DNA from: an uncultured SAR86 cluster bacterium
GTDB taxonomy: Bacteria; Pseudomonadota; Gammaproteobacteria; Magnimaribacterales; Magnimaribacteraceae
NCBI GenBank assembly: GCA_902532675.1
Contig: CACAIY010000013.1
Location: 1 to 38,591 of the forward strand
Direction: 5' to 3'
Length of the DNA: 38,591 nucleotides
Position 1 is the stretch's first letter. The number at the start of each line of letters is the position of its first letter. Made by a program: the position numbers and the translations under genes. Of the stretch, positions 23,968 to 28,645 are shown in pieces. A model generated the notes under the pieces. The model ran no database searches. It was not told the origin of the DNA and worked only from the letters and a program-made list of their open reading frames with translations.

Positions 23968-24583
23968 AGAGATTTTAAACGACCAGAGCTTAAAAAAAGG
24001 CTTTAAACACTTGATTCAAAAAGAACCTCTATTTAAGGCTGTGCTTGAACAAAAAAATTATGAGATAAAGCTTTTTAACAAGAAAAAGGGGTTTGAAGGT
24101 CTAGTTAGTTTAATAGTTGATCAGCAACTTTCTGTGGCTTCAGCAAGAGCAATCTTTAAGAGGATGAAAGAATTAATAGAACCCTTTACAGCTAAGAACT
24201 TTATTCAGGTGAGTGAAACTGACCTTAGGAATGCCGGTTTAAGCTATCAAAAAATCAAATACTGTAAAGGTATTGCCAACAATATTATTAGTGGCGATCT
24301 AGACTTGGAAAGCCTAGAAAAAAAAGAAGATTCTGAAGTAATTGAAGAGTTAGTCCAAATAAAAGGGATAGGAGAATGGACAGCAAAATGTTATTTGCTT
24401 TCCTGTCTAAAAAGAATTGATGTCTGGCCAGCGGCAGATCTGGGATTAATGGTGGCTATACAAAAATTAAAGGGCATGAAGGAAAGACCAAAACAGTTGA
24501 CAATAGAAGAAATAGCAGAACCTTGGTCACCCTATCGATCTGTTGCTGCGTTATTATTATGGTCTACACATGATAAAGAATAG
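23957..24583 (+). CDS. AlkA-like DNA-3-methyladenine glycosylase (HhH-GPD family)
   Basis: This base-excision enzyme removes alkylated purines. The 208-residue product begins MKNREILNDQSLKK. The HhH motif is VQIKGIGEWTAKCYLL, and VWPAADLGLMVAI supplies the catalytic aspartate (about residue 161). SLIVDQQLSVASARAIF and PYRSVAALLLWS are also characteristic. It lacks the extra N-terminal domain of E. coli AlkA (282 residues), as in short bacterial homologues. I chose the ATG at 23957, overlapping the previous stop codon by 11 bases. The frame stays open further upstream, but the extra residues (MTIEKIYCHL and so on) look unrelated. Confidence 0.87.
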   Translation: MKNREILNDQSLKKGFKHLIQKEPLFKAVLEQKNYEIKLFNKKKGFEGLVSLIVDQQLSVASARAIFKRMKELIEPFTAKNFIQVSETDLRNAGLSYQKIKYCKGIANNIISGDLDLESLEKKEDSEVIEELVQIKGIGEWTAKCYLLSCLKRIDVWPAADLGLMVAIQKLKGMKERPKQLTIEEIAEPWSPYRSVAALLLWSTHDKE

Positions 24584-25025
24584 ATATTCAGCAATAAATA
24601 AATCTAGAAAAAGTCTTAATGATTTAATTCGTTTATACGAACTTAATTATTTAAAGTTGATGAAACTTTTGCCTATTAAAGAAATAAATAGCAAATTCAA
24701 TTTTTTTATCCCTGAAGGTTTATATAATTCAGAAATCAGAATTTCTATAAATAGAAAATCGAAACATACCTCTAAATTGACTTTATACAAATCAAATTTA
24801 TTGAGGCATATGGAAGATACTAAAATGGAAATTTATATCTACCATGATGCCGGGATGGCTGAGGTAAGAAGGTTTAATGGTAAAAGCCAATTCTGGCTTA
24901 GAAATAAATATCCGAACAAGAATATGTTGTCAAAGGATGAAAAGTTCCAATGGAATATATTTCTTTCTGAATTTCTTACTCATGCCCAACTGCATGGTCT
25001 AAGTATTGTAGAAAATTTGCACTAA
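24570..25025 (+). CDS. DUF1249 (YqiB-like) protein
   Basis: This 151-residue protein resembles E. coli YqiB: LIRLYELNYLKLMKLLP near the N terminus, YIYHDAGMAEVRRF in the middle, and YPNKNMLSKDEKFQWNIFLSEFL near the end. The function is unknown; in enterobacteria it neighbours cpdA and nudF. I chose the ATG at 24570, which overlaps the glycosylase gene by 14 bases. A longer frame adds nine residues encoded within that gene. Its last codons contain the first half of an NtrC-like site that probably serves glnA. Confidence 0.8.
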   Translation: MIKNRYSAINKSRKSLNDLIRLYELNYLKLMKLLPIKEINSKFNFFIPEGLYNSEIRISINRKSKHTSKLTLYKSNLLRHMEDTKMEIYIYHDAGMAEVRRFNGKSQFWLRNKYPNKNMLSKDEKFQWNIFLSEFLTHAQLHGLSIVENLH

Positions 25026-25036
25026 TACAGTGCAAA
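25016..25036 (+). promoter_or_regulatory. NtrC-like site 1 upstream of glnA
   Basis: TTTGCAC, seven bases, then GTGCAAA is a perfect inverted repeat. The inner TGCAC-N7-GTGCA matches the classical NtrC enhancer core. It overlaps the DUF1249 stop codon and lies about 116 bases before the glnA ATG. ntrB-ntrC follow glnA. Confidence 0.75.
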
Positions 25037-25053
25037 TGCACTATTGAAGTTCA
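25037..25053 (+). promoter_or_regulatory. NtrC-like site 2 upstream of glnA
   Basis: TGCAC-N7-GTTCA differs from the site 1 core by one base. Its centre is 19 bases from that of site 1, about two helical turns, so NtrC dimers could bind side by side on the same face. Confidence 0.6.
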
Positions 25054-25077
25054 TTTTTATAAAAAAATCTATAATTT

Positions 25078-25094
25078 TGCACGATTAATGTCCA
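25078..25094 (+). promoter_or_regulatory. NtrC-like site 3 upstream of glnA
   Basis: TGCAC-N7-GTCCA, preceded and followed by TT and AA, is one mismatch from the core. Its centre is 41 bases from that of site 2, about four helical turns. It lies about 57 bases before the glnA ATG and could be a third activator site or a governor site close to the promoter. Confidence 0.5.
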
Positions 25095-25151
25095 AAAACG
25101 CGATTTTGCGTGGTAATATATTTTTTTATTTAATAAGAATGGAGAATATAA

Positions 25152-26120
25152 ATGAATAAATATGAGTATATATGGCTTGATGGATTTGAACCTGAGCCTA
25201 GTTTAAGAAGTAAAATTAAAGTAACTGATGGAGAACCACCAGAATGGTCTTTTGATGGATCTTCCACACAACAAGCTGAAGGGGGAAGTTCGGACTGTCT
25301 ATTACTTCCTGTAGAGCAATATGAGAATCCAACTAACGATGGGTCTCTAGTTATGTGCCAAGTTCATACGGGAGAACATGAAGTTCATCCTTCTAATACA
25401 AGAGCAGCTGCTGAAGCAGTAGTTAGTGATGAATGGTGGTTTGGTTTTGAACAAGAGTATTTCTTTACGGACAACAAAGGTAATCCTTTGGGGTGGGAAG
25501 ATGGAACTCCAAGACCTCAAGGGGATTACTACTGTGGAGTTGGTAGCAGCAATGTGGTTGGCAGAGAGATCTCTGAAGCTCATCTTGATGCATGTTTAGA
25601 TGCAGGCATTGAATTAACGGGAACAAATGCTGAAGTTGCTCTCGGACAATGGGAATATCAATGCTTAGGAAAAGGAATAAAAGCAGGAGATGACCTTTGG
25701 GTTAGTCGATACTTATTACACAAAGTAGCTGAAGAGTTCGGTGTAAGCGTAAATATTCATCCAAAGCCAAAAACAGGTGACTGGAATGGGTCTGGAATGC
25801 ATACAAACTTTTCTAATGAAGAAATGAGAACAACTGGATCTGAAGAACTCTTTAATTCTATGTGTGAAAAACTTGGTGCCGTTCATGAGGAAGGCATAGC
25901 TTCATATGGCTCCGACAATGATATGAGGCTGACTGGAACGCATGAAACTCAAAGCATAAACGAGTTCTCTTATGGCGTTAGTGACAGAGGAGCAAGTATA
26001 AGGATTCCAATTTATACTGTAGAGCATGACTGGAATGGTTATCTTGAAGATAGAAGACCTGCATCAAATGCAGATCCTTATAGGATTATTGCCCATCTAG
26101 TTGGAACTCTGACGGCGTAA
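25152..26120 (+). CDS. glnA: Glutamine synthetase, GSII (eukaryote-like) type
   Basis: The enzyme makes glutamine from glutamate, ammonium and ATP. The 322-residue length and motifs are those of GSII, not the 470-residue GSI of most gammaproteobacteria: WSFDGSSTQQAEG, WWFGFEQEYFF, QGDYYCGVG, GTNAEVALGQWEYQ, DWNGSGMHTNFS, RLTGTHETQSINEF and GYLEDRRPASNADPY. It starts YIWLDG, slightly shorter at the N terminus than plant and animal enzymes. The adenylylation loop of GSI is absent, so GlnE control is not expected. GGAG lies 7 bases before the ATG. Three NtrC-like sites upstream and ntrB-ntrC downstream point to nitrogen control of transcription. I could not find a clean -24/-12 promoter. Confidence 0.95.
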   Translation: MNKYEYIWLDGFEPEPSLRSKIKVTDGEPPEWSFDGSSTQQAEGGSSDCLLLPVEQYENPTNDGSLVMCQVHTGEHEVHPSNTRAAAEAVVSDEWWFGFEQEYFFTDNKGNPLGWEDGTPRPQGDYYCGVGSSNVVGREISEAHLDACLDAGIELTGTNAEVALGQWEYQCLGKGIKAGDDLWVSRYLLHKVAEEFGVSVNIHPKPKTGDWNGSGMHTNFSNEEMRTTGSEELFNSMCEKLGAVHEEGIASYGSDNDMRLTGTHETQSINEFSYGVSDRGASIRIPIYTVEHDWNGYLEDRRPASNADPYRIIAHLVGTLTA

Positions 26121-26175: not shown

Positions 26176-27270
26176 GTGAAAACATTAAGAGACAGCTACC
26201 TAGCAGAGCTAAATACTGGAATAATCATTCTTGATAATTCTTTGAGGGTTGTTTCAATCAACTCATCAGCTTTATCTATTTTGGATACTAGCGAGATGTC
26301 TGCTGTAGGAAGTAAAATTGATCAAATATTTTATGAAGAACCTGATAGCTTTAAAAGATTTTCGAGCTCCTTATCTGAACATAGAGGTTTTACCAAAACA
26401 GATGCTCTTCTACATTTAAAGCACGGAAGGAAATCTTTATGTGACTACAGCGTTCATCCAATATCAGAAGAATCCCGGGAAGGTTTATTAATTGAAATAA
26501 TTAATAAGGAAACTACTTCTGAGCTGATTGAAAGGTATAGAATGCAATCTAATCAACAAATTTCTCAAGAGTTTGTTCGAGGAATGGCCCATGAAATAAA
26601 AAACCCTTTAAGCGGAATAAGGGGATCTGCACAACTTTTGAGTAACAAGCTTAAAGATATACAACAAAGAGAATACACAGATATCATAATCAAACAAACA
26701 GATAGGTTGACTGCTCTAGTTGACAGTATCTTGGGTCCTAATCAGAAGCCCGACTTTAAATGGCAAAATATCCATTACCCAATTGAAAATGTCTTGAGTT
26801 TAATTGAAAAAGAATCTACATATAAAAAAATTAAGATTCTTAAAGACTTTGATCCTAGTATCCCAGAACTCTTTATAGACAGTTACCTTATAGAAAATAG
26901 TATTCTTAATTTAGTTAAGAACGCTAGAGATGCTTTAATTGAGTCTAATACGACGTCACCAAAGATTGAAATAAGAACTCGTATTTCACATGGCGAAATA
27001 ATAGAAAAAAATAAAACAGCCACAGTTTGTAAAATATCTATTATTGACAATGGGCCTGGAATTTCTGAAGAAATCAGAGATTCGATTTTCTTTCCTATGA
27101 TTACTGGAAAGGATAAGGGTACTGGACTAGGTCTGTCCATAACGCAAGGAATAATTTCTCAACACAAAGGGAATATACATTTCGACAGTACGCCTGATAA
27201 AACAGAATTCTTTATAAACTTACCTATAATAACTGCAGAAGAAGAAATTATAAGGACAGCAAATGGATAA
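26176..27270 (+). CDS. ntrB: Nitrogen regulation sensor histidine kinase NtrB
   Basis: NtrB (GlnL) phosphorylates NtrC under nitrogen limitation and, with PII, dephosphorylates it. The 364-residue cytoplasmic protein has an N-terminal PAS domain (LNTGIIILDNSLRVVSIN), an H-box MAHEIKNPLSGIRG with His139, an N-box NLVKNARDAL (245-254), DNGPGI (291-296) and GKDKGTGLGL (311-320). There are no membrane segments, as expected for NtrB. The start is GTG with no clear Shine-Dalgarno. A four-codon ATG frame (MFSL) ends on it in a GTGA overlap. It overlaps ntrC by 8 bases. Confidence 0.94.
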   Translation: MKTLRDSYLAELNTGIIILDNSLRVVSINSSALSILDTSEMSAVGSKIDQIFYEEPDSFKRFSSSLSEHRGFTKTDALLHLKHGRKSLCDYSVHPISEESREGLLIEIINKETTSELIERYRMQSNQQISQEFVRGMAHEIKNPLSGIRGSAQLLSNKLKDIQQREYTDIIIKQTDRLTALVDSILGPNQKPDFKWQNIHYPIENVLSLIEKESTYKKIKILKDFDPSIPELFIDSYLIENSILNLVKNARDALIESNTTSPKIEIRTRISHGEIIEKNKTATVCKISIIDNGPGISEEIRDSIFFPMITGKDKGTGLGLSITQGIISQHKGNIHFDSTPDKTEFFINLPIITAEEEIIRTANG

Positions 27271-28645
27271 AGGGAATATTTGGGTAGTTGATGATGATGA
27301 GTCTATAAGATGGGTTCTAGAAAGAGGCTTATCTGAAAACGGAATAGCAGTAGAGACGTTTGATTCTGCAAATAAAGTAATAAAAAAATTAGAAACCGAA
27401 AACCCTAGTCTAATTCTCACTGATATAAAAATGCCTGGTAAAAGTGGAATAGATTTATTAGATGAAGTTAAAGAGCTAAGACCTGAAATTCCGATCATTA
27501 TTATGACAGCCCATTCTGATTTAAAGAGTGCAGTAGAATCCTATGAGCATGGAGCTTGGGAATATCTTCCTAAGCCTTTTGATATCGAAGAAGCTGTTTC
27601 TATGGTCCAAAGGGCAACAACAAAAGATAATACTGAAATAGAAGAGACCGATGCATCACAAGCAGAAATAATAGGCGAAGCGCCGGCAATGCAAGAAGTA
27701 TTCAGAGCAATAGGCAAACTATCTAACTCAAACTCTACTGTACTGCTAATGGGACAATCAGGAACAGGTAAAGAGCTTGTAGCTAAAGCTTTATTTCAAC
27801 ATAGCCCTAGAAAAGAGAATGCATTTATTGCTCTAAATATGGCTGATATTCCTAAAGATCTTTTGGAAGCGGAATTATTTGGTCACGAAAAGGGTGCTTT
27901 TACTGGTGCGGATGAAAAAAGACTGGGAAGATTTGAACAAGCCAATAATGGGACTCTATTTCTTGATGAAATTGGAGATATGCCACTTGAAACCCAAACA
28001 AGGCTTTTAAGAGTTTTATCAAATGGGGAATTTTATCGTGTTGGTGGTAGACAGCCAATTAAAGTAGATGTAAGAATAATTACAGCTACGCATCAAAATC
28101 TTGAAGAGTTAGTAAAGAGCGGAGATTTTAGAGAAGATTTATTTCATAGATTGAACGTGATTAAGCTCTTACTTCCAAAACTCAATGAAAGGAAAGAGGA
28201 CATACCTGAATTAGCAAAACACTTCCTTACAAAATCTTCAGAGGAGCTGAAAGAAGAAAAGAAATTTTTGTCCGAAGAAGTTGAAAATTATTTTAAAACA
28301 CTTTCTTGGCCCGGGAATGTGAGGCAACTTGAGAACGCCTGTAGGTGGTTAACGGTAATGTCGCCCAGTAAGGAAGTTAAATTAGAAGATTTACCTGATG
28401 AATTAAAATTGGAAAATGCAGAAGAAGAAAATAACTGGAAAGTAGTTCTTAGATCTTGGTCAGAGAATTATTTAGAAAATGGTAATAAGAATCTATTGGA
28501 AGAAGTAGGACCAGAATTTGAGCGCACTTTAATAAAAGTTGCTTTAAATAAAACTAAAGGAAAAAAGAAAGAAGCTGCTGAGTTACTTGGATGGGGTAGA
28601 AATACTCTCTCTAGAAAAATTAAGGAGTTAGGTATAGAAAATTAA
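27263..28645 (+). CDS. ntrC: Nitrogen regulation response regulator NtrC
   Basis: NtrC (GlnG) is a sigma54-dependent activator of nitrogen genes. The 460-residue protein has a receiver domain (acidic pocket at 10-12, phosphoacceptor Asp54 in LTDIKMPG), an AAA+ domain with Walker A GQSGTGKE (164-171), the sigma54-contact loop GAFTGA (211-216) and Walker B LFLDEIGD (232-239), and a Fis-type helix-turn-helix at the end (KKKEAAELLGWGRNTLSRKIKEL). The intact GAFTGA loop implies sigma54 in this organism. The predicted sites upstream of glnA are probable targets. Confidence 0.95.
   Translation: MDKGNIWVVDDDESIRWVLERGLSENGIAVETFDSANKVIKKLETENPSLILTDIKMPGKSGIDLLDEVKELRPEIPIIIMTAHSDLKSAVESYEHGAWEYLPKPFDIEEAVSMVQRATTKDNTEIEETDASQAEIIGEAPAMQEVFRAIGKLSNSNSTVLLMGQSGTGKELVAKALFQHSPRKENAFIALNMADIPKDLLEAELFGHEKGAFTGADEKRLGRFEQANNGTLFLDEIGDMPLETQTRLLRVLSNGEFYRVGGRQPIKVDVRIITATHQNLEELVKSGDFREDLFHRLNVIKLLLPKLNERKEDIPELAKHFLTKSSEELKEEKKFLSEEVENYFKTLSWPGNVRQLENACRWLTVMSPSKEVKLEDLPDELKLENAEEENNWKVVLRSWSENYLENGNKNLLEEVGPEFERTLIKVALNKTKGKKKEAAELLGWGRNTLSRKIKELGIEN

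Follow-up and report, generated by a model that had tools for sequence, protein, structure and literature searches.

Background

NtrC is the textbook ATPase-dependent activator of sigma-54 promoters. In the enterobacterial glnALG operon a type-I glutamine synthetase is placed under the glnAp2 promoter with its NtrC enhancers, and at the glnL operator of E. coli NtrC represses. Control of a type-II glutamine synthetase (GSII) by NtrC is also already known, from the rhizobial glnII gene, which has a sigma-54 promoter and is found beside a type-I enzyme. So far, independence of NtrC from sigma-54 has been seen mainly in its final state, in Alphaproteobacteria. The NtrC proteins of Rhodobacter capsulatus and Caulobacter lack the GAFTGA motif and work at sigma-70 promoters, and NtrC is required for transcription of glnBA in Caulobacter (PMC10274813).

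No treatment of NtrC in SAR86 was found in the literature searched. The examined genomes of the SAR86 order fall into four families, here called f1 to f4, and the window (the whole stretch of 38,591 nucleotides that was analysed) belongs to f1. It contains glnII, ntrB and ntrC behind an array of three dyads (Table 1). The preferred reading, with a probability of about 0.6, is that the array serves NtrC as the operator of a glnII promoter of the sigma-70 type, that this promoter took the place of an ancestral sigma-54 promoter, and that NtrC would activate transcription from it.

The locus is similar to the enterobacterial glnALG operon in its gene order, in the TGCAC-N7-GTGCA dyads upstream, in an NtrC with GAFTGA and in the presence of PII and GlnD. 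It differs in that the synthetase is type II instead of type I, GlnE is absent, there is no canonical -24/-12 element, and the dyads are found at about -40 to -100, close to an extended -10 element. As in the rhizobia, a type-II synthetase appears to be controlled by NtrC, but the SAR86 enzyme is the only synthetase and is encoded in an operon with ntrBC. The likeness to R. capsulatus and Caulobacter is that nitrogen genes are placed under NtrC from sigma-70 promoters, which here are predicted. In contrast to these Alphaproteobacteria, where GAFTGA is deleted, the NtrC of this gammaproteobacterial window has the motif and sigma-54 targets coexist with the predicted sigma-70 promoter.

Results and Discussion

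Table 1. Position and identification of the features discussed. Coordinates are those of the window unless a locus is given.
Feature	Position	Strand	Basis and remarks
DUF1249 gene	24570..25025	+	PF06853, E 5e-23; start inferred; end overlaps NtrC dyad 1
NtrC dyad 1	25018-25034	+	TGCACTAATACAGTGCA, perfect TGCAC-N7-GTGCA; centre 25026, about -100 from inferred start
NtrC dyad 2	25037-25053	+	TGCACTATTGAAGTTCA, 1 mismatch; centre 25045, about -81
NtrC dyad 3	25078-25094	+	TGCACGATTAATGTCCA, 1 mismatch; centre 25086, about -40; by score no sigma-54 promoter
Extended -10 element	25111..25119	+	TGGTAATAT, sigma-70-type; conservation 1.0 vs 0.72 background; inferred start near 25126
glnII RBS	25140..25144	+	TGGAG; sequence; conservation 0.98
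glnII, type-II glutamine synthetase	25152..26120	+	NF041605, E 6e-112, below curated cut-off
ntrB (glnL), nitrogen sensor kinase	26176..27270	+	PRK11073, above cut-off; GTG start in ORF list
ntrC (glnG), response regulator	27263..28645	+	TIGR01818, 692 bits, cut-off 559
Stand-alone RpoN box	L258:1856-2092	+	family f2, genera g8 and g10
Stand-alone RpoN box	L260:1915-2145	-	family f2, genera g8 and g10
Stand-alone RpoN box	L261:1874-2101	+	family f2, genera g8 and g10

Profile matches identify the three genes behind the array as GSII, ntrB and ntrC. This agrees with an earlier note on the same DNA, which had placed glnA and ntrB-ntrC directly downstream and had assigned the synthetase to a different class from the enterobacterial one (now GSII, by the NF041605 match). 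According to Pfam domains and alignment, the NtrC of the window has an intact AAA+ domain, GAFTGA and a Fis-type HTH. The glnII gene is the one glutamine synthetase match in the window genome, and of the 203 genomes of the order 174 have a GSII match, which in almost all of them is the sole synthetase match; these and the following counts come from related, often incomplete genomes and do not represent independent events. The order glnII-ntrB-ntrC is common to f1, f2 and most of f3. GSII is kept with no ntrBC beside its gene at L269, L270, L271, L273 and L277 (f3 genus g13) and at L140-L146, and no RpoN was found in the tested genomes of g13 and f4.

PII and GlnD were each found in 31 of the 35 f1 genomes and GlnE in none of the 35, with positive controls detected. 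The family thus has the cascade of uridylylation, NtrB and NtrC but lacks the adenylylation branch, which is to be expected with GSII. Glutamate dehydrogenase was not found in f1 and f2 and gave strong matches in f3 and f4, a distribution that agrees with published work (PMC11582366). An ammonium supply that enters through glutamine synthetase alone may have required a promoter with basal expression.

The array is composed of one perfect dyad and two with a single mismatch, with centres 19 and 41 bases apart. The coordinates in the earlier note were confirmed, as was its claim that the first site overlaps the end of the DUF1249 gene: dyad 1 covers the last codons and the stop. No other dyad in the 38.6 kb window matches with one mismatch or fewer, while shuffled windows contain 0.35 such dyads on average and three were reached in 1 of 100 shuffles. 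When two mismatches are allowed, the window has 6 dyads against 6.6 by chance, which is no excess, so the weight is carried by the clustering and conservation of the dyads. The assembly of 1.34 Mb contains no more than two perfect dyads, one of them in the window.

The conservation in relatives to which the earlier note had tied its reading is seen when leaders of related genomes are aligned. Conservation of the half-sites is 0.91, 0.89 and 0.95 for dyads 1 to 3 compared with 0.72 elsewhere in the intergenic region (22 genomes of genera g1 and g7), and the half-site positions G2, C3, C5, G13, T14 and C16 of dyad 3 are invariant in all 22. The spacing is fixed across most f1 genera, with 19 bp between dyads 1 and 2 and dyad 3 situated 41-42 bp further on. 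Dyad 1 is kept throughout f1 except in genus g5 and is weak in g6, a genus where the whole array is weak; dyad 3 is missing in g2. At the g2 loci (L012, L014, L022 and L040) a terminator-like hairpin of the upstream gene, AGCCCTGTACTAGGGCTTTTTT, replaces dyad 3, and dyads 1 and 2 remain.

Scoring was done with matrices derived from SAR86 itself. The NtrC matrix was trained on dyads from f3 plus a single outlying locus, leaving out glnII of f1, and gives 23.9, 14.4 (p 0.0027) and 12.8 (p 0.0047) for dyads 1, 2 and 3 of the window. As controls in E. coli, it recovered the two known strong NtrC sites before glnA and the glnL operator, and the sigma-54 matrix recovered glnAp2. The window dyads thus have the appearance of NtrC-type sites, and NtrC would be the protein that binds them.

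The element TGGTAATAT follows the array and has no good match to a -35 element before it. Its pattern TGnTAnnnT, counted between -110 and -18 of the glnII start codon, occurs in all 30 leaders of f1 (6.0 expected) and all 31 of f2 (6.9 expected), compared with 2 of 28 in f3 (7.0 expected). Most f3 glnII genes with adjacent ntrBC have NtrC dyads together with a canonical -24/-12 element, some of genus g19 being without. Sequence and conservation together point to a sigma-70-type promoter at the NtrC sites of f1 and f2. The distance from dyad to -10 varies between genera in steps of 9-11 bp (19/28/39 and 61/70/80); with few independent events this is suggestive only of a need for dyads and promoter to stay on one helix face.

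The favoured direction of control is activation. Phosphorylated NtrC dimers would bind the three dyads, at about -100, -81 and -40, and NtrC would serve as a conventional activator of an extended -10 promoter that lacks a good -35. The dimer at -40 would occupy the position of a class-II activator and might contact sigma-70 RNA polymerase. The ancestral sigma-54 promoter, still present in f3, would have been replaced on the branch leading to f1 and f2. The window NtrC may retain GAFTGA for its true sigma-54 targets, glnK1-amtB1, glnK2-amtB2 and the gene for a TorF porin, and because the motif is still there, one protein would work in two modes.

Each of these three targets has a perfect -24/-12 element in the window genome, where the regulon was examined by pattern search and at selected loci; the sigma-54 matrix gives 24.6 for glnK1 and 24.2 for glnK2. 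The two glnK-amtB pairs are found close together (L094:3901-8476), and one of the transporters is of the marine subtype TIGR03644. The second of the genome's two perfect NtrC dyads is found 39 bp upstream of the sigma-54 promoter of the TorF family porin gene (L095:3335-3949 (-); G000 contig C2, around 20540), and this arrangement makes the gene a probable target of NtrC and sigma-54. Genus g5 is an exception within f1, with glnII inside a glnII-glnB-amtB operon behind the perfect sigma-54 promoter TGGCATATAACTTGCA (G009; L098:1246-3878 (-)).

The rpoN gene was found in 26 of 35 f1 genomes, in four of five genus relatives and in all four near-complete genomes of the family. The window's own assembly, which is 82% complete, has no rpoN match and no close lptB match either, and this is probably an assembly gap. 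A lineage devoid of RpoN was considered on the basis of that absence and rejected, a gap being likely and rpoN being present in relatives. The truncation of RpoN at profile position 97 in genus g2 (G002 and G003) was likewise set aside, as it reflects contig ends and not biology.

The main rival to activation is repression, since the -35 region lies under the proximal dyad. The dyads would then be an operator placed over the sigma-70 promoter, as at glnL and glnAp1 of E. coli, by which ntrBC would be autoregulated and glnII damped. From its place over the -35 region dyad 3 could equally repress, and the proximal site of f2 and of genus g6 is even closer to the -10 element (centre 19 bp away). 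The SAR86 matrix gives 23.2 for the glnL operator of E. coli, a site overlapping the glnL promoter. However, GSII is the sole synthetase of f1 and f2, families with no glutamate dehydrogenase found, and shutting it off under nitrogen shortage is implausible. Activation would also be the better fit to a weak -35 and to the two dyads that lie further upstream. Repression is considered unlikely.

Use of sigma-54 at glnII is possible in principle, given GAFTGA in NtrC and RpoN in f1. A classical arrangement, with dyads 1 and 2 as enhancers and dyad 3 as a degenerate -24/-12 element (TTGCAC-N5-ATGTC in the window, TTGCAC-N5-TTGTT in genus g7), fits these two proteins as well as the two-block spacing, but we judge it marginally less probable than repression. 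It is retained because the sigma-54 frame gives 9.2 for dyad 3 of g7 (TTGCACAAAAATTGTT), not far below the 11.1 of E. coli glnAp2, and a weak sigma-54 promoter at glnII of that genus is possible judging by this score. In the window, dyad 3 read in the same frame gives -2.8, compared with a minimum of 18.8 and a mean of 22.6 in the SAR86 training set. On this score and the invariant NtrC-specific positions, dyad 3 was rejected as a degenerate -24/-12 element in the window, although the spacing fits. The -25 G and the -12 C are never present at dyad 3 in g1 or g7, whereas the half-site positions T14 and C16 never vary (22 of 22). The 200-base leader contains no -24/-12 element of the genome's own type, its best sigma-54 score being 3.8 (p 0.12). 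The perfection of the sigma-54 promoters in the same genome, the absence of dyad 3 in g2 and the universal extended -10 element also argue against the classical arrangement. The resemblance to enterobacterial glnA enhancers proposed in the earlier note is therefore upheld for the NtrC-type sites and the glnA-ntrB-ntrC order but not for the enhancer mode, as there is no usable -24/-12 element.

It is very improbable that another Fis-type or an unrelated regulator binds the dyads or that they are functionless relics, as the right half of dyad 2, degenerate in many relatives, could suggest, because half-sites and spacing are conserved, ntrBC is in the same operon as glnII, and the same dyads are found at the sigma-54 promoters of the TorF gene and of glnII in f3.

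In the sister family f2 the sigma-54 system has decayed. At the rpoN locus, kdsD-lptC-lptA-lptB-X-mgtE, where all gene names except rpoN are from our own reading, f1 (L266) and f3 (L265) have a full RpoN. In the f2 genera g8 and g10 the locus holds only an RpoN box of 75-78 residues with its reading frame intact, matched in 10 genomes of which one is a single contig with a completeness of 97%. Such a stand-alone box cannot alone be a sigma factor. No RpoN match was obtained in genera g9 and g11, and a full RpoN DNA-binding domain was found nowhere in f2. A split RpoN with its core-binding domain encoded elsewhere was rejected, as there is no such domain in the f2 genomes tested.

The NtrC of f2 keeps GAFTGA in all five g8 sequences and in six of seven from g10, the remaining one having GAFAGA in a shortened reading frame. 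In the two genera with no RpoN match the protein itself is altered: the motif is GAFKGA in all 13 sequences of g11 (L245-L257), and in g9 the whole AAA+ domain is cleanly deleted in six of six (L232-L237), leaving 258-261 residues. Changes of the threonine in GAFTGA mostly abolish sigma-54 activation (PMC3162934). With RpoN lost or reduced, and with GAFKGA or loss of the AAA+ domain, NtrC of f2 can hardly act through sigma-54. Distal and proximal NtrC sites nevertheless persist in the f2 leaders, about 44 bp apart, and the extended -10 element keeps a fixed distance from the proximal site, with 27 bp between the start of the site and that of the -10 hexamer. The dyads are most degenerate in g9.

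Two genera of f2 have thus lost GAFTGA, as have R. capsulatus and Caulobacter, but in SAR86 the motif was altered by a T-to-K substitution or removed with the entire AAA+ domain, and RpoN was lost as well. The g9 protein presumably resembles the RegA/PrrA type of architecture, with a receiver and a Fis-type HTH. Unlike RegA/PrrA, it is derived from NtrC by internal deletion and is still encoded in a glnII-ntrB-ntrC operon.

In an NtrC tree with E. coli as the root, f1 and f2 group together (support 93), and f3 and L159, both with canonical sigma-54 promoters at glnII, fall outside. By parsimony, tree and promoter types together make sigma-54 control ancestral, with one switch before f1 and f2 separated. 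Tentatively, and at slightly less than even odds, the living SAR86 genera may preserve the stages through which NtrC became free of sigma-54. The glnII promoter would first have become sigma-70-type under the same NtrC sites, as in f1 and the window, with one GAFTGA-intact NtrC serving both kinds of promoter. RpoN would then have been reduced to a stand-alone box, and in genera without RpoN GAFTGA would have changed to GAFKGA or the AAA+ domain been excised, while the NtrC operator stayed.

Conclusions

Apparent intermediates on the way to an NtrC independent of sigma-54 are found within one operon of SAR86, where the binding sites provide a constant point of comparison. SAR86 is among the most abundant groups of surface-ocean bacteria, and a cultured isolate, HIMB1674, exists (PMC11582366). 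For these organisms the array before glnII points to the probable control of ammonium assimilation in lineages in which no route other than GS-GOGAT was detected.
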